From: a virus
Length of the DNA: 20,391 nucleotides
IMG/VR virus record: IMGVR_UViG_3300020470_002585
Location: 1 to 20,391 of that record
Reading direction: 5' to 3' (one strand)
Made by a program: the position numbers and the translations under genes. Each line of letters starts with the position of its first letter. Within the stretch, counting starts at the first letter, position 1. This document shows, in pieces, positions 4,232 through 20,391 of the stretch. Below the pieces are notes generated by a model. The model was not told the origin of the DNA. It saw only the letters and a program-made list of their open reading frames with translations, and did no database searches.

Positions 4232-5713
4232 CTAGACTACCGTTAAGTTTCCTACCATTGCTGCATGCATTGTGCACTGGTAAACATAAGTCGTACCAGC
4301 TGCTAAATCCATTGGGACTGTCCAATACTGGACTCCTTCTTGGTCACCTGTTACTCCTTCAGTTACTGCTGTGCCACCCGCTGTCTGTCTTAAAGCAAGA
4401 GGATGTGCTGCACCTGTTGTATTATTAAATCTATATGTAAATCCTCTATAGACAAATATTGTTGGGTTGTCTGTAGAAGGATCGACACCACCACCTGCTG
4501 CTCTGTAAGCACTACTACTAGGTCCAGTGAAATTAAATCCTATTGTAGGTGATACTGTAGGATCCCAACTGGTACCATTGAATATAATATTATTATTTGC
4601 AGAAGCAAGATTAGAAAGATAGAAATCAGAATTAAGCGTTACTGTGTTTGAAGTTACAGCAGATGTTATACCCTGGCCACCTGTCACTGCGAGGGAAGAA
4701 GTTGCAAGAGCAGCAGTTGTAGTACCACTATCTCCTGTGACTGTCCTATATGTAACTTGCTCTACGTTAGGAGCGTCGTTTGTAATTGTAAGGTTATCTC
4801 CATTAACAGCAGTACTAATGCCAGTCCCACCAATGAGATTGATAGTAGCAGTTGTACTACCTGCGGTTTTGTTTCCTGCATCACTTCCTATTACGCCATA
4901 GGCATTTTGGTTTAGGTCACCAAGGGTGCCTGTCATGTTTATGGTGAGGGTGTCTCCTGCGATTGAAGTCGAGATCTCAGTGCCTCCCGCAACTGTAAGG
5001 ACATCAGTAGGAGCACTAGCAGTAGTACTGCCAGTGTCAGCAGCGATTCCTTCAAATAAATTTTGAGTGGTTCCACCACCACCGCCACCTGATGAATCAT
5101 CGTTTGCAGGCTCCCATGCAGAGTTGCCAGCATTCCATTTAATAACTTGTCCATCACTAGGTCCACCTCCAACGGTCATATCTACATCACCAAGATCACC
5201 AAGACTGTGATCTTCACCTATAATCTTCTTCCAACCAGCAGAAGTTGCAACTCTTGCTGTAGTATCAGCAGCTACATATGCAAACATACCATGATGAGTT
5301 ACAGCATCAGGAAGATCACCAACTGTAGCAAAATGATTAGTATATTTTAGTTTACCGTCAGCACCATCAATATATGTTAGAGCAGATCCTGTGCCACCAG
5401 CCCAGAGTTGAATATCTCCAGTGCCATTTGCTTGGATTGCTATATCTCCATTGTTTGATGATATAATTTTATGACCACCGATGTCTACATCTTCTGTAAA
5501 CTTATTAAATGACCCCTCAGCAAACTGAGCACCATTCCACTTAAGTAGTTGATCCTGAGCTGGAGTGCCAACGTTGATTTGTAAATTGGTATCGTTACCG
5601 AGATTAGTATACAATTCATCAATGACGCTATTCAATTTGATAGCACCATCTCTCAGACTGTCACCAGTCCCGTCATTCGCTGACGATCCAATATTGAGGG
5701 TTTGCTTTGCCAT
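4232..5713 (-). CDS. Fibre-like virion protein with C-terminal cupredoxin-like domain
   Basis: The 493-residue protein begins MAKQTLNIGSSANDGTGDSL, a start seen in many structural and fibre proteins of marine T4-like phages. Residues 50-60 and 186-203 contain LLKWNGAQF-type and QVIKWNAGNSAWEP elements typical of phage fibres. A GGGGGG hinge (209-214) follows, then three 45-50-residue repeats of the form TxGGTGISTAVNGDNLTI (about 222-362). The last 100 residues contain TIFVYRGFTYRF (418-429), His437, Cys480, His483 and Met486, a complete cupredoxin-type ligand set with amicyanin-like C-x2-H-x2-M spacing. No signal peptide or membrane segment is seen. A CTAAATA octamer precedes the start and the next gene follows after 1 base. 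A tail-fibre or decoration role is likely; copper binding is unproven. Confidence 0.75.
   Translation of the reverse strand: MAKQTLNIGSSANDGTGDSLRDGAIKLNSVIDELYTNLGNDTNLQINVGTPAQDQLLKWNGAQFAEGSFNKFTEDVDIGGHKIISSNNGDIAIQANGTGDIQLWAGGTGSALTYIDGADGKLKYTNHFATVGDLPDAVTHHGMFAYVAADTTARVATSAGWKKIIGEDHSLGDLGDVDMTVGGGPSDGQVIKWNAGNSAWEPANDDSSGGGGGGTTQNLFEGIAADTGSTTASAPTDVLTVAGGTEISTSIAGDTLTINMTGTLGDLNQNAYGVIGSDAGNKTAGSTTATINLIGGTGISTAVNGDNLTITNDAPNVEQVTYRTVTGDSGTTTAALATSSLAVTGGQGITSAVTSNTVTLNSDFYLSNLASANNNIIFNGTSWDPTVSPTIGFNFTGPSSSAYRAAGGGVDPSTDNPTIFVYRGFTYRFNNTTGAAHPLALRQTAGGTAVTEGVTGDQEGVQYWTVPMDLAAGTTYVYQCTMHAAMVGNLTVV
4235..4540 (-). other. Cupredoxin-like C-terminal domain
   Basis: Residues about 392-493 contain RGFTYRF, then AAHPLALR with His437, and end YVYQCTMHAAMVGNLTVV with Cys480, His483 and Met486. 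The 43-residue distance between the first His and Cys is in the range of small type-1 copper proteins, and the Cys is at the end of a predicted strand, as in that fold. This is fold recognition by motif only. Confidence 0.55.
4628..5050 (-). repeat. Three fibre-type repeats (GGTGIST...GDNLTI)
   Basis: Three related segments cover residues about 222-362 of the fibre-like protein. The best aligned cores are VAGGTEISTSIAGDTLTIN, LIGGTGISTAVNGDNLTIT and VTGGQGITSAVTSNTVTLN. Each is preceded by a GS/GTTTA(S)A-type stretch. Such units are common in phage fibre shafts and are likely beta-structured. Confidence 0.75.
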
Positions 5714-5733: not shown

Positions 5734-5741
5734 TATTTAGG
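5734..5741 (-). promoter_or_regulatory. Late-promoter-like octamer CCTAAATA overlapping a stop codon
   Basis: The minus strand reads CACCTAAATAACACTG. The TAA inside CTAAATA (5739-5737) is the stop codon of the YHYH gene. The motif ends 20 bases before the ATG of the fibre-like gene at 5713. It is related to the T4 late consensus TATAAATA. No strong Shine-Dalgarno sequence follows. Confidence 0.5.
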
Positions 5742-7329
5742 TGCCATCATAAGTTTGTAATGTAGAATCCATAGTAGATGATGTACTATCGAATCTATTA
5801 TCGGTGCTGCCACCATCTCCAGCACCAGCAACTGTCAATGTTACTGCGTTAGAATCTAGTGGTGAGTTAGTTGCTGCTTGTGGTGCTCCTATAGGACCAG
5901 CGATCCTACAGCGATACTTGTATCCAGTCATATAGGACAGTGCAGTAACTGAATATGTGTTAGTTGTTGCACCAGTTACAGCAGCAAATGCGAATCCACC
6001 ATCAGTAGATCTATACCACTGATATGCCACAGGTCCGTCTTCTGGTAAGACAAGACTGGTAACAGTAAATGTGGCAGTCTGACCAGCATTAACTGTTGCA
6101 TTCTGTGGTTGTAGACTGAATGTTAGGGTTGGTACCACACCACCGCCACCATCTCCACCGCCACCACCAGCAGGTGCTTCAACAGTGAACGTTGTGTCAA
6201 TGGTTTCTCTAGTGGTTAGTCCAACAATGAATGGAAATTTAGTAAGATTTACGTTAGTTTCATCTACTGTCAGGAAATATGCATAGGTGCCGTCCTGATA
6301 TTCAGGTGTAATAGCAAATCTTCCATTATGACTGTCTAAATCACCTGTCCCTTCAACAAATTCATAGTCCTCCATGAGAGTACCAGCAGGAGGATTGTCA
6401 CTTGTATTACCATAATCAGGTCTTCCAGGTGCTTCTGTGTCTCTTACAGCATAACCAGTCCTCATTGTCCTAGTACCACTCAAATTATCGAATGGTACAT
6501 CATATCCATAAGGTCCATAGATAGGAAATCCGTCAAATGCTATGCCAACTATCTTAGAATGACCGTCTGGATGACGAATATTGTCTCCATTATACTGAGT
6601 TGACCCATAATAATCATTATATGATGCCATAGATGACCCTGATTTCCAACAATCTAGGAAATGTGGGTCATGATAGTGGTAAATTCCAGTCTGTTCTGGG
6701 TGTCCACCACAATTATCCTCTCCAGAGTTAACAAAAGTTAGATCACCAGCAGCAACCCAACTAAAACCTGATGGAGGATTGAGTCCAGCACCAGCAGAAG
6801 GGTTAAAAATGGCAACTCCGTTACCTGAAATACCAATTTGTCCTAAAGGGGTCTCAATTCTTCCATTTCTTTGGTCAAAATACTCCATTGTGCCACTAAC
6901 AGGAGTGGATGCTTGAGTATCTACGATGAAATCTAATGTAGTATCAGTAGATAACCAACATTCTCCAGCAATAGAGGTGAATGTTGTGCTTCTAAAAATG
7001 AATTTTTGCTTTAATCCGTCACTAAAACTTACTAATATATGATCATCAACAGCAATATCAGGATTTGGTCCAGTAAAAAGAGTTAAGTCGTTGACCGAGA
7101 TGGTCGCTCTCCGAATATATCCGTCATGCGTATATCCATTATTATCAAATGTGCGAGCAATTCCAAATGTTCCTCCACGGTATAAGAAGTCATGATCCCA
7201 ATCTTTCTCCTGAATAGTGTTAGGGTTATTATCGTTAGGGAACGTACCAGGAATCACAGGAGCAGGGAGGGCATCCGATGCTACTGTGATTACTTTAGTT
7301 GCGTTATTAAAGGAAGCTGTTGCTGCCAT
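5737..7329 (-). CDS. YHYH-domain virion-associated protein with Ig-like C-terminus
   Basis: The 530-residue protein carries the YHYH family signature: GIYHYHDP (residues 215-222) preceded by CGGHP (207-211), then HPDGHSKIVGIAFDGFPIYG (253-272), continuing as PYGYD. The N-terminus (about 1-150) contains DNNPNTIQEKDW (33-44) and beta-rich sequence. A Gly-rich hinge (388-397) leads to an Ig-like domain (about 400-500) with the core PVAYQWYR (433-440) and a YKYRCR strand (470-475). A short Ser/Asp/Thr tail ends the protein. YHYH proteins occur in bacteria and phages and their biochemical role is, to my knowledge, unresolved; the His-rich core suggests metal binding. No signal peptide is evident, so packaging in the virion is the likely fate. 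The ATG follows the giant gene by 15 bases, and there is a CTAAATA octamer at the junction. Confidence 0.78.
   Translation of the reverse strand: MAATASFNNATKVITVASDALPAPVIPGTFPNDNNPNTIQEKDWDHDFLYRGGTFGIARTFDNNGYTHDGYIRRATISVNDLTLFTGPNPDIAVDDHILVSFSDGLKQKFIFRSTTFTSIAGECWLSTDTTLDFIVDTQASTPVSGTMEYFDQRNGRIETPLGQIGISGNGVAIFNPSAGAGLNPPSGFSWVAAGDLTFVNSGEDNCGGHPEQTGIYHYHDPHFLDCWKSGSSMASYNDYYGSTQYNGDNIRHPDGHSKIVGIAFDGFPIYGPYGYDVPFDNLSGTRTMRTGYAVRDTEAPGRPDYGNTSDNPPAGTLMEDYEFVEGTGDLDSHNGRFAITPEYQDGTYAYFLTVDETNVNLTKFPFIVGLTTRETIDTTFTVEAPAGGGGGDGGGGVVPTLTFSLQPQNATVNAGQTATFTVTSLVLPEDGPVAYQWYRSTDGGFAFAAVTGATTNTYSVTALSYMTGYKYRCRIAGPIGAPQAATNSPLDSNAVTLTVAGAGDGGSTDNRFDSTSSTMDSTLQTYDGT
5830..6132 (-). other. 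Ig-like domain of YHYH protein
   Basis: The domain begins after GGGGGDGGGG with LTFSLQPQNATVNAGQTATF, has the Trp-containing strand AYQWYR, and ends with YKYRCR and NAVTLTV strands. The pattern (V-x-x-G-x-x-x-x-F, then Q-W, then Y-x-C) is that of bacterial and phage Ig-like surface domains. A paralogous copy ends the gene upstream (7390-7690). Confidence 0.75.
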
Positions 7330-7341
7330 TGTTTTTACTTT

Positions 7342-7349
7342 TATTTAGA
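7342..7349 (-). promoter_or_regulatory. Late-promoter-like octamer TCTAAATA overlapping a stop codon
   Basis: The minus strand reads CATCTAAATAAAAGT. The TAA within CTAAATA (7347-7345) is the stop codon of the giant gene. The motif ends 12 bases before the YHYH gene ATG at 7329. If transcription started at T4-like spacing, the leader would be very short. It is a sequence match only. Confidence 0.5.
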
Positions 7350-10300
7350 TGTCATCAAAGATGAGATTAGGTGTAAAGTCTGTGATTACAGTAGCACCTG
7401 TCTGGACGCTTAGGACTGCTGATAATGAGTAGACTGGGGTTGCTCCAGCAGCAGTAATTGCGACTCTGTATTCATCACCATCGTCTGCTTGTTGAGCAGC
7501 GTTTGTGTTATATGTTGATTGGTTAGCACCAATGATGTTGCTCCAAGTCTGTGTGCCATACTCCTTCTTCTGCCACTGATAATTCATTGTCTGATCATTA
7601 GTTACAGTAGAGACAACTGTGAATGCAGCAGTCTGACCTTGGTTAACAGTTACGTTAACTGGGTCTGTAGTGATTGCAATTGTGCCAGGAGTAATTCCTC
7701 CACCACCACCTGCTTCTCCGCCTGGGCCTTCACCTGCGAGTACGTCAAATCCACCGTTAATTGGACCACCTTCAGGAGGTGTAAAGTCATCTGGGACTAC
7801 GTTATCAACAGCGACGATAGGTGAAGTATAACCAACACCAGGTGTCTTAACATCAATACGTGTGATACCCATTAATGCTTTCAACTTACCGTCGAATCCA
7901 GAGGATGAAATAACATCCACGTTAGGACGGTCAGTATAACCATCGCCAGGATTGGTTAGGACTGCGTTAACAATTTGACCAGAGGTAATTTCTGAAATAG
8001 CATCAGCATTTCTACCCTTAACTGATCCAGTATATTCAAATGTGATTAGTGAGTTAGAAGACTCAATTAGAGCAACTTCTCTGGAGAATTCCTCACCCTC
8101 GATGTCTAGTTTATCACCAGCTTCGATTGGTGGGACAACAGTTGCTGCGATAACGTCTGCGTCAGATCCAATGTATGAGAAACCAACGAAGGTTGATCCC
8201 GCACGTGGGACTTCAGCGAAGATGATACGTGAACCAACGATCTCGTATGCGACTCCAGGTTCCTGAATAATACCGTTAAGTGAAACGATAATGTTATTCT
8301 CAGGACGGATAGTGTTAGAAGAAACACCTTCAGTTAGTGTCAAGGAGTAGAATAGTCCACCACGCTTGAGGTTGAATGAAGATCTCAATGAGTCAAACTC
8401 GAAGGAGATATCATCTAACTGACGTAATTTACCAACGTAGTATCCGATAAATTCAGATCCAATGTCAGGTGCCTCAGCAAACTGTATCTTGTCAGAGAAT
8501 GCAACATAAGAAGCATTACCACCAGGAGGTTGTAGGATACCATTAACGAATGCGAGTAAGTGACCAGCAGGATCTGGGAAGTATGCTTCACCGTTAGAAA
8601 CAGTTAAGTCAAATGTTGTCTGAGTTCCATCAAATCCTCTGAAGTAACGATCAACTCTACCTTCTAGTGTGCGAGCAGAAGAAATACCAGCACCCCATCC
8701 GAAGTCAGACTTGAGTGACATATTATCAAGGAATTGACCACTAGCAGATTGTACCCAGATAGTAGCAGTAATACCTGCTTGCTCTATAGCAACTACCTGT
8801 GCGTAAGATTGATAATCAGTAGCAGTGTAACTAGCAACACCAGCATATATGGTTGGGAAGTTAGATCCTAATTCTATCTTACCGATATTGTTACCAGCTT
8901 GTGTTAGATCAGTTAGAGGAGAACCAACACCTACAGGGTTGATATTAGCAATCCATAGTTTGTGTGGTACTGGTGGATTAGCAGTTGCATCTTCTTCCTG
9001 ATACTTAGTAACAACAGCAGTGAATCCAGGATTCTTCTGGACTGTACCTTGTAGGAGTGAAACCTCATCACCAACATTGAATGTATCAGAGAGACCAGTA
9101 TCAATGATTGCTACACCTAGATCTAATTCTAGAGTCTGTATACCATGTATCCACTGATTAAGTTGAAGTTGTGTGCCAGTAATACCCTTAATATCTAAGA
9201 TGTAATCAGTAACACTACCGTAAATAATATCACCTGGAATCCATGGTTCTTCAATTGTTTCTACATCAATTGCAATTCTACCACCTTCATTGCTTATCAA
9301 AGATCCAGACTTACTTGTGTAGTTGTCCATGTATGCTTCGATAGCACCAACCTTACTGAAGAACCAATCACCTGTAGCGAATGCTCCTTTCTTAACGTTG
9401 ATTAAGAATCTATCGGTAGGAGTGCCAACTGTATGAACTGCACCACTATCAGCACCTTCTAATATATCACCACTGCTAATAGTACCAGCGACGGTATGTA
9501 GTTTCAAGAATGATGTGCCAGTCTCAGTATCAGGTTTCAACATCTGTAAAACCTTACCGTTATTAGCGGTTGCGTTCTGGACTTGTGCTGTCTCTCCGTT
9601 TACAAATGTATCATATGTGCCTGGAGTTGTTTGTGCAGCAACTGTTGGATAATGAGTAAAGAGTTTGTAGATAATACCTTCGTTTGCATTGATAGTGCCG
9701 ATCTCAGCGTTAGCATTTGAGGTGCTACCAAAGACAACATCAGCAGCGTTAAATCCACCTTGTATTGGGCATTCTGAAGTATCAACTGGGAATGTAGCCT
9801 CAGTCCTAGGTACTCCATCTCTTCTTTCAACAGCAAATATCTGAGATCCAGAATTAGACTTATCAACTTGTAGAAGTCTAAATCGGCCATCATGGATATA
9901 CGAGGCTCCAATTTCAAACCACTCAGCAGTACCTGTTAGGACATAGAAGTATGGTTGATTAGCAAGACCTGTCAATGAATTCTCAGATGCAGGAATGTAT
10001 GTTAATACATCACCACGACGGAAGTTATTAGGACGCTCAATTCTGATTCTATACTCAGCACGATCATAACCTACATCAACTTCTGGAGTTAGACTTACTA
10101 GATCAGGATCAGTATTATAGTCAATACCCATCTCATACTTAGTAACTCTGTTTGTGCAATCTGTAGATGCTACGAATGTTACTCTTGCTTCAGTTGGATA
10201 TTGTGACATCTCTAAAGCATACTCAATTGGATTGAGTGAAGAGTCAATCATAAACTCAGCGGCTTCTTTATTCCACTCAAGTTTCTGTGGTGTTTCAATT

Positions 10301-13300
10301 GAATAAACATCATATGGATCCCATCCACTTTCCTCAAAATCAAACAATACACTCTTAGCATATTCACGAACTCTTGCAAGACAGAATAGAAGATGAGTCC
10401 TAGTTACGTTAGTAAATGCTATGAAGTTACCTTCACCATCAAACCAGTCTTGTGTCATTCTGAATGATCCAGCATTACCTTCGGTAACTAAGTCATATCT
10501 TATTGCAGCAACACAATCATTAGCGAAGTCAATCGTTAAGTTAGTAGTTGGATAATTTGTCTGAGTTTCAGCGAATGCTCTACCAGCAATTGCTTGCTTA
10601 TTGAAGAGAATCATATCAGAAATTCTCTTACTGTTATTTGTCCCACTACCAAGTGCATCAGTAAAGAGATCCATCAAAGTATCAATTGCTGATGTTACGT
10701 TATAGCAAGTACCTGTCTGGAAGTCTGCGTTACTATTGTATGGGAATGTCTTGGTTATAGTAGACAGATGATTAGTCTGGACATTTGCTGCCTTATCAAT
10801 TGTCTCGATAAAGATATCAGCTAATGTGTTAATAGCAGATGCAGTTTCTTGACATGTCTGATTCCATGTGCCGTTAGCATCTGATCCACCATTTTGACTA
10901 TCATAGGTAACAGTCTTATCTCTGATAACAACATCAGGTGTATACTTAACGGGCCAAACAATTGGCATTGTGTAAGATCTACCAGCAACATTATTAGGTT
11001 GACTAATAGCATCTGTTACCAATTGCATTAGGTTACCAATCTCAGTTTCTACACCAGATCCTTCAGTACCAGTATATTCATCGTTAACTCTACGTGCACG
11101 ATAGTAATCTAAGTCTGACCTAAGTGGATATGCATAAGACAATACTGATTGGACAGGTATTATCTTACCATCAACGTGATCTGTAACACGAGGATATGTG
11201 TGCTGAGTAGCATTACTATCCTGACTACATGTGAATGTTAATGAGTTAGTATCAATCGTAATAGCATCATCTGTGCGTAGACTATGACCAGCAACAGTCA
11301 ATGTTAACTGACCTGTAGTAGGCTCATAGTATGCATCTGTAGGTGTAAGTTGAGTGCCATCATTAACAACGTTAATTGCACCAGCAGCAGCAGTTACAAA
11401 GTTATGCTTATAGTTACCACCCTGTATTATACATCCAGAGTTTGCACTCACAAATGTATGCTGGAATGTCTTACCAGCAGGTGATACACCTACGTTAATT
11501 CTTATCTTACCATCCTGTATTCTAATACCCTTCTCAATACAAGATACAAATGTATGCTTACCCATGAAGTTGGTAGGAAGTGTATCTAACACTTGGACAT
11601 CAAATGTGTCAGTGGTTATGTTATGTACTGCCAACCATTCATTACTTGCATGATCTGTAGGTCTTGGATACAAGTGTGTCGTACGATGATTATCTAGATC
11701 ACATGTAAATCCTAAAGCATGATCTTGTATGTAAATGTAATCATTCGCTTTCCATATACCATTAGTCTTAGCAGATACAAATGCGTGTTGATAGCTACCA
11801 CCACCAATAACAGCACCAGGTATTGCACTAACGAATGTATGATCGAATAGATTAGTTGTTTCTTGAGCGATATTTACATCAACTGTAATCCAACCACTCT
11901 GTCTATGTAATGTGTTATTTCTAAATCTCTCGAATGTATGAGTGTGGTTACCACCAGCAGTGATAGCATTAGATGCAGCAGAAGCAAATCTGTGTGTATG
12001 GTCACCAGCAACAGTGGATCCTACATTAACAGTAATTGTAGAATTCTTCTTCTCTAATCCATCAGCAACAGCACTTACATATGTGTGTGCATATTCACCA
12101 TTACCTCTGATTGTTCCTCTGATAACTGCACCAGTTTCAACTCTCTCAATTGTGTGAGTTGTAGTATTAGAAGAAACACCAACGTTAACTGTATATGTGT
12201 TTGCATCTACAACAGTAAGAGTTAACCAGTCACCAGCAGCAGGGTCTTGTGCTCTAGGATAAGCATGCTCAGTTGCAAAACTATCTTCCTGACACTTGAA
12301 TACAAAACTCTCATTCATTAACTGAATCTTATCACCATTTGCAAATGGGTGAGTATTATGAGTAATTGTTAATATACCTGTTGCTGGAGCATAAGAAGCA
12401 GTTGATGGAGTGAATGCATTTTCAGATCTTACAAATTGGTGAATTGAAGTATTACTTGATTTACCAACATGTACTGTAATTGTCTTCTCAGTAGCAGAAA
12501 GAATAGGTACTGAAGTATCATAGAATGGGTCAGTAGATCTTGGATACTTATGCTCACTACCGAAGCTGTCAGCATTACACTTGAATACTAATGACTCTTC
12601 CTCAATGTATACTGCCTCATGTGCATAAGCAAGACCGTTAGTAACAGCAGACACAAATGTGTGTGGTGAAGTAACAGACTGAGGAGCAGATGCTAACACC
12701 ATTACATCAAATGTATCAGTAGTGATGTTACTTACTTCTAACCACTTATCACTTGGATAGTCAGTAGCACGTGGATATGTATGATTGTCAGTAGGATTAT
12801 CAGCATTAGCGATACCAACTTGGACTGTAATTGTTGTAGCAGTTGGGCTGGTTACTGCAAGTGCTGTGCCAGATGCAGGGTCAGTAGCACGTGGATATGC
12901 GTGGTTAGATCCATGATTATCAGCATCACAAGTGAAGGTTACACCACCGTTAACGATAGTAACTGTATCAGAAGTTGTCAAACTATGTGACCCGATTTCT
13001 AAGACTAAGAGTCCAGTATTAGGATCATATGTTGTACCAGCAGCAGCTGTGTATGTAGTAGTGCCATCATTAATAGCATTGTTAACACCACTTACAAATG
13101 TATGAGTTCCAGTAGATGCAGCACAGTTGAATGTGATGGAGTTATCGTCAAACTTAACTCTGTCTCCAATCTTCATTCCGTGTCCAGCAACAGTAGCTGT
13201 TAATACACCAGTTGTAGGATTGTAAGCAGCATCAGTAATTGTAGTTCTACCACCACCCTTAAAGTTGTGATCACCAATGGTAAGCACCATATCACCTGTA

Positions 13301-16300
13301 GTAGGTTCAAATGTTGCAGCAGAAACTAGGTAGTTAGCACGAGGTGTCTTACCAACGTTAACATCAAAGTTATTACCAGAAACATTAGAAATTTCTAACC
13401 ACTTCTCTGAAGCATAATCTGTCTCTCTTGGATAAGAATGATTAGTTGCATTATTATCCATGTCACAGGTCATTACTAGAGAATGATCAGCGATTCTTAC
13501 ATGGTCACCATTAGCAAATGGGTTGTTAGCAACTGTTAGTGTTAATACACCAGTTGTAGGATTGTATGCAGCACCAGATGCAGAATACTTAGCATGACCT
13601 ACTGCCTTGATCTCAAGAGCATGATCATGTGCTCTATCTCTCTTAGCTTTAAGTCCATTAGCAGCGAATGATTGGAAACTGTGTGTGAATGATCCACCAG
13701 CTCTAATTGATCCTCTCTTAACAGCACCAACTTTTGCTCTCTTAAATGTATGAGCAGAGGTGTTTAGAGAAGGTATGTTATCACCTAATACTTGTACTTG
13801 GAATGTATCGTTAGTTACATTCTGAAGTGTTAACCACTTATGACTTGCAGGATCACCATGTCTAGGATAAGAGTGCTCAGTAGCATGGTCATCTTTAGCA
13901 CATGTGAAGATTAATGAGTTATCTTCAAACATGATCTGCTCACCATTTGTCATACCATGAGCAGTAATAGTTACTGTCATTAATCCTGTGGTAGGACTGT
14001 ATACAACTGCGGTTGGTGTCTTACCTACAGCAGGTTTAAAGATGTGAGCATGATTAGATGCACCACTAGGTGATGAGTTAACATTAACTGTTATAGTGCT
14101 ATCAGATACAGCAGTTACAGCAATAGCATCTTGATATGCAGGGTCATCAGCAGTAGCACCACCAGTACCATTAGGACGTGGATATGCGTGATCAGTTTGA
14201 TGACTATCCTGAGCACAAGTGAATGTCATTGACAGTGGGTTAATGTAAACACTATGTGCAGTTGTAATACCGTGGTCAGGACCAACAGTAATTACCATGT
14301 TACCGTTAGAAGCGTTATACTCTACATTCTGAGGATCGAAACTCTTAAACTCAGACTTACCAACGAAGATCTTGAATTGATTAGCATCGATATACTCGAT
14401 AGGCTTCCACTTACCACTGATAGGATCAGAAGATCTAGGATAAGTCTTGTCATTGGTACTTCCGTCCATTGTGCAACGCAGTGTTATTGCATTGTCATCA
14501 ATCTTAACAAGAGATCCTTCATCTAAACCATGACCATTAGAAGTGATTGTTAAATAACCTGTTGCTCCATCATAGTCAGCACCTGTTGGAGTGAAGTTAT
14601 CAATTGTATTTCTTGGATATGCATGAGTAGTCTGATAGTTATCCTGACTACATTCCATTGTGATACCACCATCAGCAATCTCAATACTCTGTCCAACCTT
14701 AAGTGGATGAGTACCAATCTCAATTTCTAAATGACCTGTTGTTGGTGTGTAAGATGCATCTACAGGAGTATACTGGACAGCAGCAGTTGTGCCTACTTCA
14801 ATATCAAAACCATCTGTAGATACGTTAGAAATTTGTACCCACTTACCACTGATAGGATCTGTGCCTCTAGGATATGCATGGTCGCTAGATCCATCATCCA
14901 TTGCACAGGACATATCAAAAGCATAATCTTCAATCTTAATGTAGTCTCCATTTGAGAATCCATGCTTGGATACTGTTAGTGCCAATACACCTGTAGATGG
15001 TGTGTAGGTAGCAGCAGTTGGAGTATGTCTTGTTACACCGTCATCAATAATCCTAAGTGAATTATTATATGCAGGGTCAGTTGTCCTTGGATATGAATGA
15101 TTTGAAGATCCACCATCCATTGAGCAGGTGAATGTCAAAGCATCAGCAGGAAGTTTGATGCTGTCATTACCCTTCATTAGGGTAGCAACAGTTATACTTT
15201 CAGGTCTAGCAGATACGAATGTATGAGTTGTAGTATTGCTAGAAGGAATATTGAATAGGACTTGGACATCGAATGTATCCTTAGTTACATTCTTAACTAT
15301 CATCCACTCATCACTGAATGGGTCAGATGCCCTAGGATAAGCATGATTGGATTGATCACTATCCTGATCACATGTAAATGTTACAAATCCATCCTCTACC
15401 TTAATTCTGCTACCATTCTTAAGACCGTGGTTAGCAACAGTAAGTGTCATTACACCTGTTGTTGGGTTGTAACCAGCATTAGTTGGTGTAAGTTGTGCAG
15501 GAGCAACAAACTTATGAGTATAGTCACCACCAGATGCAATTGTTGCTCTAACAACAGCACCAGTAAGAGCACTTACAAATGTGTGAAGAGTTTCATTGGT
15601 TGATGGGACATTATCAAGGACATGGACATCAAATGTGTCATCAGTTACATTGTGAATAGTTAACCACTTGTTGTTTACTGGGTCACCAGATCTAGGATAT
15701 GCATGATTAGTTTGGTTAACATCCTGTAAGCATGTGAATACTAATGAGTTAGTACCAATCTTGATATTCTCTCCTTCGAGGAATCCATGATTAGGAATTG
15801 TTAGAGTCAACCAACCTGTTGTTGGATTGTAGTTAGCATCAGTTGGTGTATATGCTTCAGTTGATGGAACGAATGTATGGTTATATGCACCACCTACCTT
15901 CAGACTATTAGCTGATGCACTTATAAAGTTATGAGAAGTTGGGTGACTAATCTGACCATTACCAATATCAAGTATTATCTGACCAGTTTGTCTATGTAAT
16001 GAGAGATTCTCCCAAGAAACAAATGTATGCTCATAAACATCGTTAATACCAGACTTGCCTATATGGACAGTGAAACTACTGTTACTTACATTAGAGATAG
16101 GTAACCACTTACCAAATGTAGGATCTGTCCTTCTAGGATAAGAGTGGTTAGTAGCGTTGTTATCCTTAGTGCATTGGAATGTAACTGCATTCTCATCAAG
16201 CATTACAAAGTCATTTGCTTTCCAAACGGCATCGGTACCGATGGATATAAGTTGATGGACTGTATTGTTTGAAATAGCACCTTCACCGAAGAAGTTACCT

Positions 16301-19300
16301 ACGTTAACATCGAATGAATTACTACCAACATTAAATGCTTTCAACCACTTACCACTAGCAGGGTCAGATGGTCTTGGATATGCATGGTTACTTCCATTAC
16401 TATCTTGCTCACACTGGAAGGTAAAGTGTCCATCCTGAAGGAGTAACATATCACCATTCTTAACGTTATGACCATTAAGATCAATTCTCATGGTACCTGT
16501 AGCAGGATAGAATGTAGCACCAGTTGGTGTCATTGTGCTATGATTACCAAAGCTATTGCTCATGGTAATTGTCATAGTACCCTTAGTAGGATTATACTGA
16601 GCGTTAGTAGGACTATGATCTGTCTTACTTACTTCGTAGATAGGAATATTTGTATCGAAGAAATGATCCTTCTTGTGAGTAATGCAGTTTGCATTAGCAG
16701 ATACAAAGTTATGGATTGTAGTATTTGTAGAAGGTACTACATCTAACACTTCTACGTTAAATGTGTTAGCAGTAACATCCTGAATCATCATCCACTTACC
16801 ACTTACAGGGTCAGAAGGACGAGGATATGTATGATTACTTGCATTACCATCCTTAGCACATGTAAATGTTAAGGAGTTGTCAGCAATCTTAACGTAAGAG
16901 TATGGAAGGAATCCATGATCATCAACAGTAAATGTAAGATGTCCTAAGTTAGGATCATATGTTACATCTGTTGGTGTATGAGTTGTACCAGGTCTAGGAT
17001 ATGAATGATTAGATCCATGACTATCAGCATCACATGTCATTGTGATTGCAGCTTCATCTAACCTTACACTGTCTCCAGCATGACGTAGACAATCAACAAC
17101 AGAAGTTGAGTAAGTATGATCGTAAATACCACCACTTACAATCTGTGCTCTAGTAATACAATTACCAACAGCACTAGAGAATAGATGAGTTGTTGTATTG
17201 CTTTGAGGTATGACTGTGTTAACTGTAACATCGAATGTGTCCTCAGTTACACCATGTACCTTCAACCATGATCCAGAAGCAGGGTCACCAGGACGAGGAT
17301 AAGCATGAGTAGTCTGATGATCATCCATAGCACATGTTAATACTATGCCATAATCATCTATCTTAATCATGTCACCATTCTCTAGTTTATGACCAACGAT
17401 TGTTATTGTCATAACACCTGTAGTAGGATTATGATTAACATTTGTTGGAGTCATCCCTGTGTTAGGGACATAGGTATGGACACTCTGATCTGAGATAGCA
17501 CCGTTACCAACATTAAGAGTTATAGTTCCATCTCTCTTAGTAATTCCATTTGAAACAGCAGACTGGAATACATGTGTTGTTGTGTTAGTAGAAGGAGCAT
17601 ATGATAATACTTGTACGTCAAATGTATTAGCAGTTAAGTTACTACCTAATACACGTTGCCATCTATTTGCATATGGGTCTGATGCTCTTGGATAGGAGTG
17701 ATCAGATGATTGACCATCTTCATCACAACGGAATACTAATGAATTAAGGACAAACTTAACATCATCACCTTCTTGTAATCCATGAGGATTAGCAGTAGTG
17801 ATGGTCATTATACCTGTAGTAGGATTATATGATGTACCACCAGTAGCAGTTAAAGGAGTACCATCATATAGCACTTCTATTGCTGTGTTATAGAATGGGT
17901 CATTACCATTAGGACGTGGATAGTAGTGATTACTATTATTAGCATCTAAGAAACATGTGAAGTTAATAGATTCTGTTGCTAGTCTTACACTCTGTCCTCT
18001 TCTTAAACCATGATCACCAATAGTAGCAACTAACTGACCGTTAGAAGGAGTGAAAGTAGCAGCAGAAATTGTAAATGGTATAGCAGGTGTCCTACCTACA
18101 AATACATCGAATGAATCCTTAGAAGAATTTCTAACATCCATCCACTTACCACTCATCTGATCTGTTGCTCTAGGATAAGCATGAACTGTTGCATGGTTGT
18201 CCATTGAGCAGGTGAAACTTACTCCACCATCAGCAATCTTAACGTAGTCACCATTAGAGAAACCGTGATCAGCAACAGTCAATCTCATTAAACCAGTTTG
18301 ACCGTTATACTCACCACCAGTAATACTATGAATACTAGACTGACGTAATGTATGCTTTCTATCTGGGGTTATTACTAATTGACCATTACCAGGAGTAAAT
18401 GTTGCATTGGTTGGTGTGTATTCTACTTGTGGTGTTGTACCTACATTAACAGTAATAGAATCTGAAGTAACACCAGTGATTGCTATAGGCTCGTTATGTA
18501 CTGGATCTTTAGCTCTTGGATATGAGTGCTTAGTAGCATGGTCATCCATATCACAAGTGAATGTCAAGCTTTCTTGTGACAGTTTGATGTGTGTTCCAAC
18601 TGCTAAACTGTGTGATCCAATTGTTAATGTAAGAGCACCAGTAGTAGAGTTAAATGTAGCAGCAGTAGGTGTCCAACCTTTAACTGGAGATGGACCTACG
18701 TTAACAGTAAATGTACCACCTTCCTGATCAGACTCAATAACTTCTAACCACTTACGTGTGCAAGGATCAGTAGATCTTGGATATACATGATTAGTATAAT
18801 GATCATCCATTGAGCAAGTGAATGTCATGGAGTTTTCCATGATCTGTATCTGCTCACCTACTGTAATCTTATGTCCAGCTACTGTTAGTTTTAACTTACC
18901 AGTATATGCCTCATACTCAGCATGAGATGCTACATGAGTGGTAGCACCAACGAAACGATGCTGACCAATATTCATTTCTAAATGACCAGTATTCTGATCA
19001 TAGGTAGCATCAGAAACATCATACTCAACTTTAGGAGTCTGACCTACGTTAACTGTAAAGAGATCTTTGCTTATAACAGACTCAACTAATAACCACTGAT
19101 CACCAGCAGGATCTTTCTGTCTAGGATATCCATGCTTAGAAGAATGATTATCTTGAGCACAAGTGAATATTAGAGATCCATTTTCAATTCTTACCTGATC
19201 ACCAGTCTTAAATCCATGCTCTTCAACCTTAACTGTTAATACTCCACTATCAGGATCATATGATGAATCAGTTGCAGTATGGACTGAATGGTTTGTCATT

Positions 19301-20391
19301 CCATGTCCAGGTACTGTCAAGGTCATAATACCTGTATCTGGTGTATAAGATCCAGCAGTTGCCTTCTTATCTTCACCGTATGTTTCTAATACTTCAATAG
19401 TAGTATTGCCAGCAGGGTCGCCAGAACGAGGATAAGAATGAGTAGTAGCGTTTCCATCTTGGTCACAAGTGAAGTTAATGGAGTTGGTTGTCAATCTGAG
19501 GAATGTACCCTCTGTATGATTGTGTGATCCAACATTCATTATCAAATCACCAGTGCTGGAATCATATGCAGCATGGGTGCAATCATACTTGATAGTAGGA
19601 GCAGGACCGACATTAACAGTAAATGTGTTAATAGGTGAAGACTCACTACCAACGTTTGATGAGTTACCAACTCCATATCCAGCATAATTTGAATCTGCAA
19701 ATATTCCAGATCCACCAGTTAAACCAGTATATCCACCACCTTGAGTTTCAGCATTTCCAACAGATACACCGTCAATCCACAATTCTACTCTACCCTTACC
19801 AGCAGATAAGTTACCTCCAATATTGATTTGCCATACTAATTCATGATCACCATTATCAAAGTATGTTGATAGATTACTAATTTGTAGGTCAAGCATTGCA
19901 AGACCATTCTCAGAATGACCAGCACCACCAGCGTAACTATTAGATCCATCACCAGCACGAAGTCTTAAATATGTGCCACTATCTCTAACACCAAACCATA
20001 CACCAGCAGTTGGTCCACCAGCTTCAAAGATTACTCCATCTATAGGACTAGATGCTAACTTAGCAACACAACGGAATACAGCATCTTCAGTAGGTACTAT
20101 ACCACTGCCACTATCAGTTGTGGATATCTTGTCTTCACCAGCCTTAAAGGATCTAGTGATAATATTATTAGTTTCACCTTCTATTTGTCCATCTTCATCA
20201 GAGTTTAATAGTGAAGTTGTAGGTCTTGGGACAGCATCATAGAATCTCTGATCTACAGTCCAACCAGCATCATTACTGATTACCTGAGACTTCATTGCAC
20301 GGATTGCAAGCTCTTTTGCTTTGTTAATAATCCAAAGAGACTCAGTAGGAGCGTTAGTAACATGATCTAAGTTACCATTATAATTGGTATA
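7345..20391 (-). CDS. Giant repetitive virion structural protein (5' end outside window)
   Basis: The frame is open to the right edge: 32 sense codons, ending IINKAKELAIRA, precede the first in-window ATG at 20295. The true start is therefore outside and at least 4,348 residues are encoded. Order of parts: an edge segment; a LamG-like domain (about 20150-19640) with WFGVRDSGTYLRLRAG and RVELWIDGVSVGNA; a repeat array (about 19625-11150) with 27 YPR motifs; two related helical segments (SAINTLADIFIETI, SAIDTLMDLFTDAL; about 10840-10640); tandem NGILQPPG and NGIIQEPG modules (about 8640-8180); two GxGY turns (about 7970-7810); a Gly-rich linker; and an Ig-like domain (7390-7690). No stop or frameshift interrupts it. 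The 3' third resembles large virion proteins of marine T4-like phages. A long fibre or baseplate-attached adhesin is inferred; no enzyme motif is seen. Confidence 0.85.
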   Translation of the reverse strand, partial: YTNYNGNLDHVTNAPTESLWIINKAKELAIRAMKSQVISNDAGWTVDQRFYDAVPRPTTSLLNSDEDGQIEGETNNIITRSFKAGEDKISTTDSGSGIVPTEDAVFRCVAKLASSPIDGVIFEAGGPTAGVWFGVRDSGTYLRLRAGDGSNSYAGGAGHSENGLAMLDLQISNLSTYFDNGDHELVWQINIGGNLSAGKGRVELWIDGVSVGNAETQGGGYTGLTGGSGIFADSNYAGYGVGNSSNVGSESSPINTFTVNVGPAPTIKYDCTHAAYDSSTGDLIMNVGSHNHTEGTFLRLTTNSINFTCDQDGNATTHSYPRSGDPAGNTTIEVLETYGEDKKATAGSYTPDTGIMTLTVPGHGMTNHSVHTATDSSYDPDSGVLTVKVEEHGFKTGDQVRIENGSLIFTCAQDNHSSKHGYPRQKDPAGDQWLLVESVISKDLFTVNVGQTPKVEYDVSDATYDQNTGHLEMNIGQHRFVGATTHVASHAEYEAYTGKLKLTVAGHKITVGEQIQIMENSMTFTCSMDDHYTNHVYPRSTDPCTRKWLEVIESDQEGGTFTVNVGPSPVKGWTPTAATFNSTTGALTLTIGSHSLAVGTHIKLSQESLTFTCDMDDHATKHSYPRAKDPVHNEPIAITGVTSDSITVNVGTTPQVEYTPTNATFTPGNGQLVITPDRKHTLRQSSIHSITGGEYNGQTGLMRLTVADHGFSNGDYVKIADGGVSFTCSMDNHATVHAYPRATDQMSGKWMDVRNSSKDSFDVFVGRTPAIPFTISAATFTPSNGQLVATIGDHGLRRGQSVRLATESINFTCFLDANNSNHYYPRPNGNDPFYNTAIEVLYDGTPLTATGGTSYNPTTGIMTITTANPHGLQEGDDVKFVLNSLVFRCDEDGQSSDHSYPRASDPYANRWQRVLGSNLTANTFDVQVLSYAPSTNTTTHVFQSAVSNGITKRDGTITLNVGNGAISDQSVHTYVPNTGMTPTNVNHNPTTGVMTITIVGHKLENGDMIKIDDYGIVLTCAMDDHQTTHAYPRPGDPASGSWLKVHGVTEDTFDVTVNTVIPQSNTTTHLFSSAVGNCITRAQIVSGGIYDHTYSTSVVDCLRHAGDSVRLDEAAITMTCDADSHGSNHSYPRPGTTHTPTDVTYDPNLGHLTFTVDDHGFLPYSYVKIADNSLTFTCAKDGNASNHTYPRPSDPVSGKWMMIQDVTANTFNVEVLDVVPSTNTTIHNFVSANANCITHKKDHFFDTNIPIYEVSKTDHSPTNAQYNPTKGTMTITMSNSFGNHSTMTPTGATFYPATGTMRIDLNGHNVKNGDMLLLQDGHFTFQCEQDSNGSNHAYPRPSDPASGKWLKAFNVGSNSFDVNVGNFFGEGAISNNTVHQLISIGTDAVWKANDFVMLDENAVTFQCTKDNNATNHSYPRRTDPTFGKWLPISNVSNSSFTVHIGKSGINDVYEHTFVSWENLSLHRQTGQIILDIGNGQISHPTSHNFISASANSLKVGGAYNHTFVPSTEAYTPTDANYNPTTGWLTLTIPNHGFLEGENIKIGTNSLVFTCLQDVNQTNHAYPRSGDPVNNKWLTIHNVTDDTFDVHVLDNVPSTNETLHTFVSALTGAVVRATIASGGDYTHKFVAPAQLTPTNAGYNPTTGVMTLTVANHGLKNGSRIKVEDGFVTFTCDQDSDQSNHAYPRASDPFSDEWMIVKNVTKDTFDVQVLFNIPSSNTTTHTFVSARPESITVATLMKGNDSIKLPADALTFTCSMDGGSSNHSYPRTTDPAYNNSLRIIDDGVTRHTPTAATYTPSTGVLALTVSKHGFSNGDYIKIEDYAFDMSCAMDDGSSDHAYPRGTDPISGKWVQISNVSTDGFDIEVGTTAAVQYTPVDASYTPTTGHLEIEIGTHPLKVGQSIEIADGGITMECSQDNYQTTHAYPRNTIDNFTPTGADYDGATGYLTITSNGHGLDEGSLVKIDDNAITLRCTMDGSTNDKTYPRSSDPISGKWKPIEYIDANQFKIFVGKSEFKSFDPQNVEYNASNGNMVITVGPDHGITTAHSVYINPLSMTFTCAQDSHQTDHAYPRPNGTGGATADDPAYQDAIAVTAVSDSTITVNVNSSPSGASNHAHIFKPAVGKTPTAVVYSPTTGLMTVTITAHGMTNGEQIMFEDNSLIFTCAKDDHATEHSYPRHGDPASHKWLTLQNVTNDTFQVQVLGDNIPSLNTSAHTFKRAKVGAVKRGSIRAGGSFTHSFQSFAANGLKAKRDRAHDHALEIKAVGHAKYSASGAAYNPTTGVLTLTVANNPFANGDHVRIADHSLVMTCDMDNNATNHSYPRETDYASEKWLEISNVSGNNFDVNVGKTPRANYLVSAATFEPTTGDMVLTIGDHNFKGGGRTTITDAAYNPTTGVLTATVAGHGMKIGDRVKFDDNSITFNCAASTGTHTFVSGVNNAINDGTTTYTAAAGTTYDPNTGLLVLEIGSHSLTTSDTVTIVNGGVTFTCDADNHGSNHAYPRATDPASGTALAVTSPTATTITVQVGIANADNPTDNHTYPRATDYPSDKWLEVSNITTDTFDVMVLASAPQSVTSPHTFVSAVTNGLAYAHEAVYIEEESLVFKCNADSFGSEHKYPRSTDPFYDTSVPILSATEKTITVHVGKSSNTSIHQFVRSENAFTPSTASYAPATGILTITHNTHPFANGDKIQLMNESFVFKCQEDSFATEHAYPRAQDPAAGDWLTLTVVDANTYTVNVGVSSNTTTHTIERVETGAVIRGTIRGNGEYAHTYVSAVADGLEKKNSTITVNVGSTVAGDHTHRFASAASNAITAGGNHTHTFERFRNNTLHRQSGWITVDVNIAQETTNLFDHTFVSAIPGAVIGGGSYQHAFVSAKTNGIWKANDYIYIQDHALGFTCDLDNHRTTHLYPRPTDHASNEWLAVHNITTDTFDVQVLDTLPTNFMGKHTFVSCIEKGIRIQDGKIRINVGVSPAGKTFQHTFVSANSGCIIQGGNYKHNFVTAAAGAINVVNDGTQLTPTDAYYEPTTGQLTLTVAGHSLRTDDAITIDTNSLTFTCSQDSNATQHTYPRVTDHVDGKIIPVQSVLSYAYPLRSDLDYYRARRVNDEYTGTEGSGVETEIGNLMQLVTDAISQPNNVAGRSYTMPIVWPVKYTPDVVIRDKTVTYDSQNGGSDANGTWNQTCQETASAINTLADIFIETIDKAANVQTNHLSTITKTFPYNSNADFQTGTCYNVTSAIDTLMDLFTDALGSGTNNSKRISDMILFNKQAIAGRAFAETQTNYPTTNLTIDFANDCVAAIRYDLVTEGNAGSFRMTQDWFDGEGNFIAFTNVTRTHLLFCLARVREYAKSVLFDFEESGWDPYDVYSIETPQKLEWNKEAAEFMIDSSLNPIEYALEMSQYPTEARVTFVASTDCTNRVTKYEMGIDYNTDPDLVSLTPEVDVGYDRAEYRIRIERPNNFRRGDVLTYIPASENSLTGLANQPYFYVLTGTAEWFEIGASYIHDGRFRLLQVDKSNSGSQIFAVERRDGVPRTEATFPVDTSECPIQGGFNAADVVFGSTSNANAEIGTINANEGIIYKLFTHYPTVAAQTTPGTYDTFVNGETAQVQNATANNGKVLQMLKPDTETGTSFLKLHTVAGTISSGDILEGADSGAVHTVGTPTDRFLINVKKGAFATGDWFFSKVGAIEAYMDNYTSKSGSLISNEGGRIAIDVETIEEPWIPGDIIYGSVTDYILDIKGITGTQLQLNQWIHGIQTLELDLGVAIIDTGLSDTFNVGDEVSLLQGTVQKNPGFTAVVTKYQEEDATANPPVPHKLWIANINPVGVGSPLTDLTQAGNNIGKIELGSNFPTIYAGVASYTATDYQSYAQVVAIEQAGITATIWVQSASGQFLDNMSLKSDFGWGAGISSARTLEGRVDRYFRGFDGTQTTFDLTVSNGEAYFPDPAGHLLAFVNGILQPPGGNASYVAFSDKIQFAEAPDIGSEFIGYYVGKLRQLDDISFEFDSLRSSFNLKRGGLFYSLTLTEGVSSNTIRPENNIIVSLNGIIQEPGVAYEIVGSRIIFAEVPRAGSTFVGFSYIGSDADVIAATVVPPIEAGDKLDIEGEEFSREVALIESSNSLITFEYTGSVKGRNADAISEITSGQIVNAVLTNPGDGYTDRPNVDVISSSGFDGKLKALMGITRIDVKTPGVGYTSPIVAVDNVVPDDFTPPEGGPINGGFDVLAGEGPGGEAGGGGGITPGTIAITTDPVNVTVNQGQTAAFTVVSTVTNDQTMNYQWQKKEYGTQTWSNIIGANQSTYNTNAAQQADDGDEYRVAITAAGATPVYSLSAVLSVQTGATVITDFTPNLIFDDI
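7390..7690 (-). other. Ig-like domain ending the giant protein
   Basis: After a GGEAGGGGG linker (7690-7745) the sequence runs IAITTDPVNVTVNQGQTAAF, then NYQWQKK and DEYRVAITAAG strands, with the same V-x-x-G-Q-T-A-x-F and Y-Q-W landmarks as the Ig-like domain of the next gene. The Cys of the Y-x-C strand is replaced here (EYRVAI). The last residues, TDFTPNLIFDDI, lie outside the domain. Confidence 0.72.
11150..19625 (-). repeat. Tandem C-x2-D-x5-H-x-YPR protein repeats (27 YPR copies)
   Basis: A typical unit is YNPTTGVMTLTVANHG, then NGDxIKIxD, then SLTFTCxxDxxxxNHAYPR, then DPxSGKWLxIxNVTxDTFDVxV. YPR codons begin, on the plus strand, at 19426, 19120, 18775, 18514, 18169, 17914, 17686, 17293, 16993, 16819, 16372, 16132, 15691, 15331, 15085, 14866, 14611, 14434, 14176, 13861, 13426, 12889, 12769, 12538, 12253, 11662 and 11188. 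A further copy near 13080-13160 keeps ITFNC but has lost YPR. Spacing varies from 40 to 197 residues. The shortest full unit is 58-59 residues; longer ones hold HTFVSA-type inserts. Units are diverged at DNA level. The pattern suggests a chain of beta-rich modules. Confidence 0.9.
11370..12150 (-). repeat. Cluster of HTFVSA-type spacer repeats
   Basis: This stretch holds the densest run of a second motif: HTYVSAVADGL, HRFASAASNAI, HTFERFRNNTL, HTFVSAIPGAV, HAFVSAKTNGI, HTFVSCIEKGI, HTFVSANSGCI and HNFVTAAAGAI. They are usually separated by I-x-GGxYxH or ITVNVG-like strands, with one complete YPR unit among them (YPR codons at 11662). Related copies occur between YPR units throughout the array, from about 17590 leftward. 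Confidence 0.75.
19640..20150 (-). other. LamG/concanavalin-A-like domain
   Basis: The segment between the edge-proximal part and the first YPR repeat has the pattern of a laminin-G-like jelly roll: AVFRCVAKLAS, GVIFEAGG, VWFGVRDSGTYLRLRAG, HELVWQINIGG and GRVELWIDGVSVGNA. Such domains often bind glycans; this is suggested here, not shown. Specific ligand residues cannot be assigned by eye. Confidence 0.65.

Follow-up and report, generated by a model that had tools for sequence, protein, structure and literature searches.

A module array of about 95-residue units in a giant gp7-position baseplate protein of T4-like marine cyanophages

The window we have analyzed is a virus record of 20,391 bases (IMGVR_UViG_3300020470_002585), and all the features described here lie on its minus strand. 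A single unbroken frame occupies positions 7345–20391, with 4348 codons present. Its 5' end lies beyond the contig edge and the frame stays open as far as that edge, so the ATG at 20295 may not be where translation begins. It is followed by a YHYH-domain virion protein (5737–7329), assigned by PHROG and Pfam profile matches and by synteny, a T4 gp9/gp10-like baseplate connector (4232–5713), a baseplate-associated protein which matches PHROG 22827/708 (2350–4230), a T4 gp8-like baseplate wedge protein (781–2316) and the start of a DUF4815 structural protein (3–776), which is cut by the contig end. The gene order gp25-gp6-giant-YHYH-gp9/10-hypothetical-gp8 is found in the phages P-TIM40, P-RSM6, S-SZBM1 and S-WAM1. 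The window shows the downstream part of this order (YHYH, gp9/10, gp8); the upstream gp25-gp6 part is known from the relatives, as the contig ends there. The YHYH domain (PF14240), a separate gene in the window, is also found within the relatives' giants, at about aa 1340–1560 in P-TIM40, P-RSM6, S-SZBM1 and P-SSM4.

The giant matches PHROG profiles 701, 18802, 5342, 1276 and 2885, whose annotations include virion structural protein, tail fiber protein, unknown and baseplate wedge subunit. The match to PHROG 701 has E 0 and 1683 bits, over 25 stretches. The C-terminal scaffold (7345–11118) is conserved: Over the last 1250 aa, identity is 51–55% to the corresponding proteins of P-TIM40, P-RSM6, S-SZBM1 and S-WAM1. 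In these relatives, a short stretch of the N-terminal core, a region outside the window, matches T4 gp7 (31 residues, 45% identity, hhalign E 1.6e-5). The Pfam Baseplate_wedge family matches the same stretch, and the PDB chain 9f4a, "Baseplate wedge protein gp7", matches at the same place with E 0.08. Synteny, the C-terminal identity and this short gp7 match in the relatives together identify the window giant, by homology, as the gp7-position "baseplate wedge initiator" of T4-like cyanophages (Kyanoviridae), whose gp7-like core itself lies outside the contig. It shares its gene slot and conserved scaffold with the other cyanophage gp7-position giants (PHROG 701/18802; T4-GC 397/643/969), many of which have the same modules. 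The gene order gp6-gp7 is common to the cyanophage giants and T4, but T4 gp7 has 1,032 aa, while the complete cyanophage giants examined have 6,180–8,573 aa and contain YHYH, lectin and repeat cassettes as insertions.

Between the conserved flanks of the giant there is an inserted cassette of about 3,040 amino acids (11119–20238, boundaries approximate to a few codons), formed by a lead domain and the module array. This cassette is absent at the site in S-WAM1 and S-SZBM1: Their scaffold runs uninterrupted across it, where the window lineage has about 3,040 extra residues. The same empty-site alignment, in which contig L024 (77% identical) provided the upstream flank, defines the conserved scaffold upstream of the cassette (20239–20391). 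In P-TIM40, the downstream modules are found at a nearby but different point. The lead domain (19588–20223) is present in 11 related contigs and is possibly lectin(LamG)-like, a weak likeness (E 0.006, 23 columns).

The frame of the giant contains 27 YPR motifs and 25 strict C-x2-D-x5-H-x-YPR motifs, the same counts as those given by the sequence-only reading which called our attention to this region. Shuffling the protein 200 times gives a mean of 0.29 YPR (maximum 3) and no full motif at all. Two copies are imperfect: One has Lys in place of His (aa 1952) and the other is a half-module lacking the Cys part (aa 2507). We have built a profile of the unit from the 25 strict copies, which detects 28 modules above a threshold of 15 bits. 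They span 11068–19587, and the limits initially proposed for the array (11150–19625) were right to within about 100 bases.

Following the direction of translation, the profile matches are module 1 (19303–19587), module 2 (18991–19281), module 3 (18664–18936), modules 4 to 7, which form our four-module structural model (18388–18675, 18055–18330, 17836–18075 and 17557–17853), module 8 (17170–17454), module 9, whose C-terminal part is short (16981–17145), module 10 (16696–16980), used as a query in our tblastn searches, module 11 (16285–16533) and module 12 (16012–16293). Modules 13 (15568–15852) and 14 (15208–15492) form the two-module model. They are followed by module 15, which is short (15022–15201), module 16 (14761–15027), module 17, whose C-terminal half is missing (14596–14772), module 18, in which, as the motif count also shows, His is replaced by Lys (14326–14595), module 19 (14029–14340), module 20 (13735–14022), module 21 (13306–13587), module 22, a short variant which keeps the Cys and lacks the YPR segment (13099–13245), and module 23 (12790–13050). 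Module 24 (12646–12813), also seen in the motif count, is a second half only, with YPR and without the Cys; it comes straight after a complete module, as if left by unequal recombination. The array ends with modules 25 (12424–12693), 26 (12139–12414), 27 (11539–11811) and 28 (11068–11349), and the end of the last one runs into the scaffold according to the empty-site alignment.

Each module has about 95 amino acids, with the consensus TPTxAxYxPTTGxLTLTVxxHGLxxGDxIKIxDNSLTFTCxxDxxxTxHxYPRxTDPxSxKWLxIxNVTxxTFxVxVG. In a set of 515 modules with pairwise identities below 70%, the Cys, Tyr, Pro and Arg hardly ever change (about 100%), a conservation which exceeds that of most hydrophobic core positions. 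Asp57 is present in 97% of them and Asp44 in 92% (it is replaced by Gly in 5%), while position 50 is His in 76% and Lys in 19%. The suggestion that all copies keep Cys, Asp, His, Tyr, Pro and Arg is thus only partly true of the wider family as regards the His. The copies have diverged in DNA, as had been noticed: The 41-nt motif copies have 61–78% DNA identity to a reference copy, while the motif residues are 99–100% identical to those of the orthologues, with codons only 61–91% identical.

A profile which contains the motif could bias its own results, and we have used the N-terminal half alone as a query. Among 985 distinct matches, Cys and YPR are both present in 965, Cys without YPR in 19, and neither in one. 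Nearly all of the 19 have a shorter joint, such as C-x-Y-G, replacing the segment. Therefore, the Cys is tied to the strand that it ends and the YPR segment can be lost as a block. Such short variants, in which a direct joint (for example, SCTYGNVPHTFITG) replaces the D...H.YPR segment and the Cys is kept, are found at 13099–13245 in the window and also in L045, L054, L063, L066, L090, L061 and other related sequences. There is one conserved Cys per module, and only 8 other Cys in the whole 2,840-aa array.

The AlphaFold predictions for two modules (mean pLDDT 86.6, from a 50-sequence alignment) and for four modules (mean pLDDT 86.9, 38 sequences) agree on a repeated beta-fold. A structure prediction lacking any such repetition, which the sequence-only reading had named as evidence against itself, was thus not obtained. 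The secondary-structure pattern is identical in both copies of the first model, and the strand order repeats in the copies of the second one. In the modelled module, the Cys ends one strand, C-x2-D forms a short turn helix and HxY starts the next strand. The pTM values are 0.51–0.52, therefore the placement of modules relative to each other carries no confidence, and an extended rod is something we infer.

The sequence-only reading could name no catalogued domain for the module, and this still holds: Searches of Pfam, NCBIfam and PDB with the module give no family above threshold, and a Foldseek search against PDB gives nothing below E 1e-3 (best E 2e-3). A few likenesses below significance deserve a comment. 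The E1 FCCH domain (PF16190) scores 21.2 bits on the window protein, below the Pfam gathering cut-off of 29.5. It is above the cut-off in none of the 10 cyanophage genomes tested, and gives sub-threshold sequence matches in 8 of 50 members (best E 2.8e-4). Foldseek matches to E1 chains have a probability of 0.5–0.9 and E 0.1–0.3, and the Uba1 chains among the fold matches have a probability of 0.6–0.9. This domain shares the HG[LF]-x2-GD-x-[VI] hairpin with the module; no counterpart has been identified for the C...YPR segment. The other likeness is to endosialidases. The phi92 endosialidase 4hiz matches with a Foldseek probability of 0.95 over 119 columns (E 0.13, low TM-score), and the endosialidase beta-barrel PF12195 gives weak sequence matches below its gathering cut-off in 7 of 50 members (best E 0.024; in L066, 11.3 bits against a cut-off of 35). 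It is a weak likeness of both fold and sequence, and the FCCH and endosialidase fold matches have E values of about 0.02–0.3; no enzyme domain is found in the window protein. No immunoglobulin-like or FnIII family of Pfam matches the window protein, and FnIII chains appear only among the weak Foldseek matches with a low TM-score. We read the module, from its sequence and its predicted fold, as a small barrel of the FCCH/endosialidase beta-barrel general type, which would not be a member of either family.

All 21 window modules tested match both PHROG 1276 (unknown function) and PHROG 5342 (tail fiber protein). These profiles describe whole proteins and not the domain, so that the fold or function of the unit is absent there. 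The relatives' giants have a conserved HGLLV[GE]D-x-VT-x-YG...NGTF-x-V stretch in their gp7-like core, at aa 950–1015, which resembles a simple element of the FCCH type lacking the YPR insertion and is a possible ancestor of the modules. The module profile matches this stretch over 15 columns only (E 0.0023).

The number of modules is very different among gp7-position giants. In the eight other reference giants, it ranges from 0 to 18, compared with 28 in the truncated gene of the window: There are none in S-WAM1 and S-SZBM1, 1 in S-RIM8 (a partial gene), 2 in S-SM1, 5 in P-TIM40, 11 in P-SSM4, 12 in P-SSM7 and 18 in P-RSM6. Only uncultured contigs match or exceed the 28 modules of the window, with up to 32. 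Nevertheless, the nearest relative of every window module is the one which occupies the same position in related contigs, and never a sister copy: Identity is 72–97% for the same position in the closest contig and 33–60% (median 48%) for the best sister copy, so we have rejected a recent tandem expansion. Contig L024 keeps 28 colinear modules, and its alignment with the window, of 3,873 columns, has 17 gap positions. The dN/dS ratio is 0.24–0.36 over the array and about 0.02 at the residues of the motif. Positional orthology and low dN/dS therefore indicate that the copies are individually maintained, as the idea of selection on each module supposed, and that array length changes between genera and not by recent slippage. 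Judging by these alignments, the array is ancient and has changed little in the group to which the window belongs.

In order to find other genomes with this module, we have used module 10 as a tblastn query. It has a match in 293 of 50,697 phage records, all of them Synechococcus/Prochlorococcus T4-like phages or marine single-virus records, and at least 589 matching stretches have been confirmed in IMG/VR. Modules are also found in a "tail protein" of S-WAM2, which adjoins a short tail fibre gene, and in a "short tail fiber protein" of ACG-2014i. ORF_101 of S-TIM4, a phage with published data on host adaptation (PMC6224464), is module-bearing as well. A scan of a bacterial and archaeal genome collection gave 5 loci with the module. 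They look like phage contigs, which has been demonstrated for one, and we have rejected a bacterial origin of the module. L100 (NZ_RMVE01000006.1), which is 188 kb long and deposited as Nonlabens xiamenensis, is 98.8% identical to P-TIM40 over the 16 kb tested, and on this identity we consider it a cyanophage contamination of the bacterial assembly. Another locus is a phage-sized Prochlorococcus single-cell contig. The other three, L097, L098 and L101, come from MAGs assigned to Euryarchaeota or Planctomycetaceae; they have the same modules as the cyanophages and are probably mis-binned virus. As far as these searches reach, the modules are confined to marine cyanophages.

Orthologues of the giant are components of the virion. 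The full-length orthologue S-SZBM1_208 (6,619 aa) is represented by 71 peptides in purified particles (PMC9146016), and T4-GC 969, which corresponds to S-SM1_102, has been detected in S-SM1 virions (PMC3037559). The proposal of a multi-module virion protein therefore stands, but it is not an anonymous rod: It belongs to the known gp7-position baseplate wedge family. TEM shows no long tail fibres on S-SZBM1, and for S-WAM1, P-RSM6 and P-TIM40 either these fibres or the genes for them are reported to be missing (PMC9146016). A LamG lectin domain is found in the same polypeptide as the modules in P-SSM4 (E 4.6e-27), and lectin (LamG) domains are also present in the giants of the close relatives L024 and L022. 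These lectin domains and the reported lack of long fibres in four phages make a host-contact role of the giants plausible. On the other hand, S-SZBM1 and S-WAM1 have neither long fibres nor modules, therefore the array is accessory and not the sole or required replacement of the fibres.

Some other observations touch on the same subject. Residues 2666–2718 of the P-TIM40 giant (L006) match the domain with which the tailspike of a short-tailed cyanophage binds its receptor (PDB 7eea, E 6e-8), and this stretch appears, by sequence, to be a receptor-binding piece common to short-tailed and contractile-tailed cyanophages. In L024, aa 1495–1544, upstream of the array, give an above-cut-off match to the Pfam Phycobilisome protein family (PF00502, E 1.8e-5). 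This would be odd in a cyanophage, and we have taken it as a likely chance match of a short helical repeat stretch. Coevolution experiments with S-PM2 reportedly found mutations in very large hypothetical proteins (PMC9910659).

On balance, we think it fairly probable that the array is an accessory baseplate arm of a T4-like marine cyanophage, a domain rod for reach and presentation in host contact. T4 gp7 anchors in the baseplate wedge, and both homology and synteny suggest that the gp7-type scaffold of the giant would do the same. The cassette, with its lead domain and 28 small beta-domains in about 3,040 residues, occupies one site between the conserved flanks, and each module of about 95 residues may fold independently as a small beta-barrel or sandwich. 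Within it, the C-x2-D-x5-H-x-YPR-x2-D-P stretch is predicted to run from the end of one strand through a short turn helix into the next strand, and may act mainly as a structural lock of the extra hairpin. The chain of modules would project from the baseplate as a long arm, whose length we estimate to be of the order of 100 nm, assuming 3.5–4 nm for each of the 28 domains. There would be one arm per wedge if the gp7 stoichiometry holds, and the arm might set the reach and presentation of host-contact domains on the same protein. Our analyses themselves show what the protein is, the exact insertion, a repeated fold (as a prediction), selection acting on every module and the distribution of the modules; we infer the extended shape of the arm, its outward projection, its host-contact role and its stoichiometry.

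The main alternative is that the array is not a spacer but a multivalent adhesin, in which each module binds a host-surface glycan through a pocket formed by C, D, H or K, Y and R. The invariance of C, Y, P and R in the 515 modules, above most hydrophobic core positions, would fit such a pocket, as would the agreement of weak sequence (PF12195, 7 of 50 members) and fold (4hiz, probability 0.95) likenesses to a sugar-binding enzyme barrel and the lectin domain in the same polypeptide of relatives. However, all these fold matches are below significance, His is Lys in 19% of modules, the short variant persists despite losing Y, P and R, and the array, with its dN/dS of 0.24–0.36, has no sign of positive selection. 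We consider this possibility rather unlikely. The same judgment applies to the wider proposal that the module represents a new family of small-barrel domains which bind carbohydrates and belong to marine T4-like cyanophages alone, with the array as a multivalent adhesive baseplate arm. If this were true, the length and module set would determine which Prochlorococcus/Synechococcus surfaces are reached.

Other readings concern the motif itself or deny it any function. The invariant Cys might form disulphides between neighbouring modules or between virion arms, cross-linking the appendage. There is exactly one conserved Cys per module, kept in 984 of 985 N-terminal halves even when YPR is missing, with hardly any others in the array (8 in 2,840 aa), and a disulphide network has been reported in the tail of another phage, Milano (PMC10811340). 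Nevertheless, the modelled Cys ends a strand and may be buried; we give this reading little credit. We have rejected a disulphide within the module, which has a single conserved Cys. A metal site which stiffens each module seems even more doubtful: The close spacing of Cys, Asp and His, kept in 25 of the 27 window copies, resembles a ligand set, but in the 515 non-redundant modules His becomes Lys in 19% and Asp44 becomes Gly in 5%, the module has no second conserved Cys, and the short variants keep the Cys while dropping D and YPR. Zinc or any other metal is thus disfavoured. Finally, the variation in copy number from 0 to 32 between genera might suggest recently amplified, selectively neutral repeats without a function for each copy. 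This is the least credible of these proposals, as best sister copies are only 33–60% identical, compared with 72–97% for the same-position module in the closest contig, dN/dS is well below 1 with a frozen motif, and L024 holds the 28 modules in colinear order (17 gap positions in 3,873 columns).

Part of this was already known: The protein family had been recognized, its members are annotated as virion proteins, and the domain lies inside PHROG profiles without a description. We have found no paper which names the module in the full texts searched. As far as the literature searched is concerned, the delimitation of the unit, the fold predicted for it, the frozen motif, the precise presence or absence of the cassette and the positional orthology are new.

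In summary, cyanomyoviruses are among the most abundant viruses in the ocean, and the accessory baseplate arm that we propose would belong to them. A domain definition, absent from both Pfam and NCBIfam, would annotate hundreds of genomes. The discrete, swappable array of 3,000 residues, missing at the same site in some phages, offers a defined test target for the giant "hypothetical" baseplate proteins.
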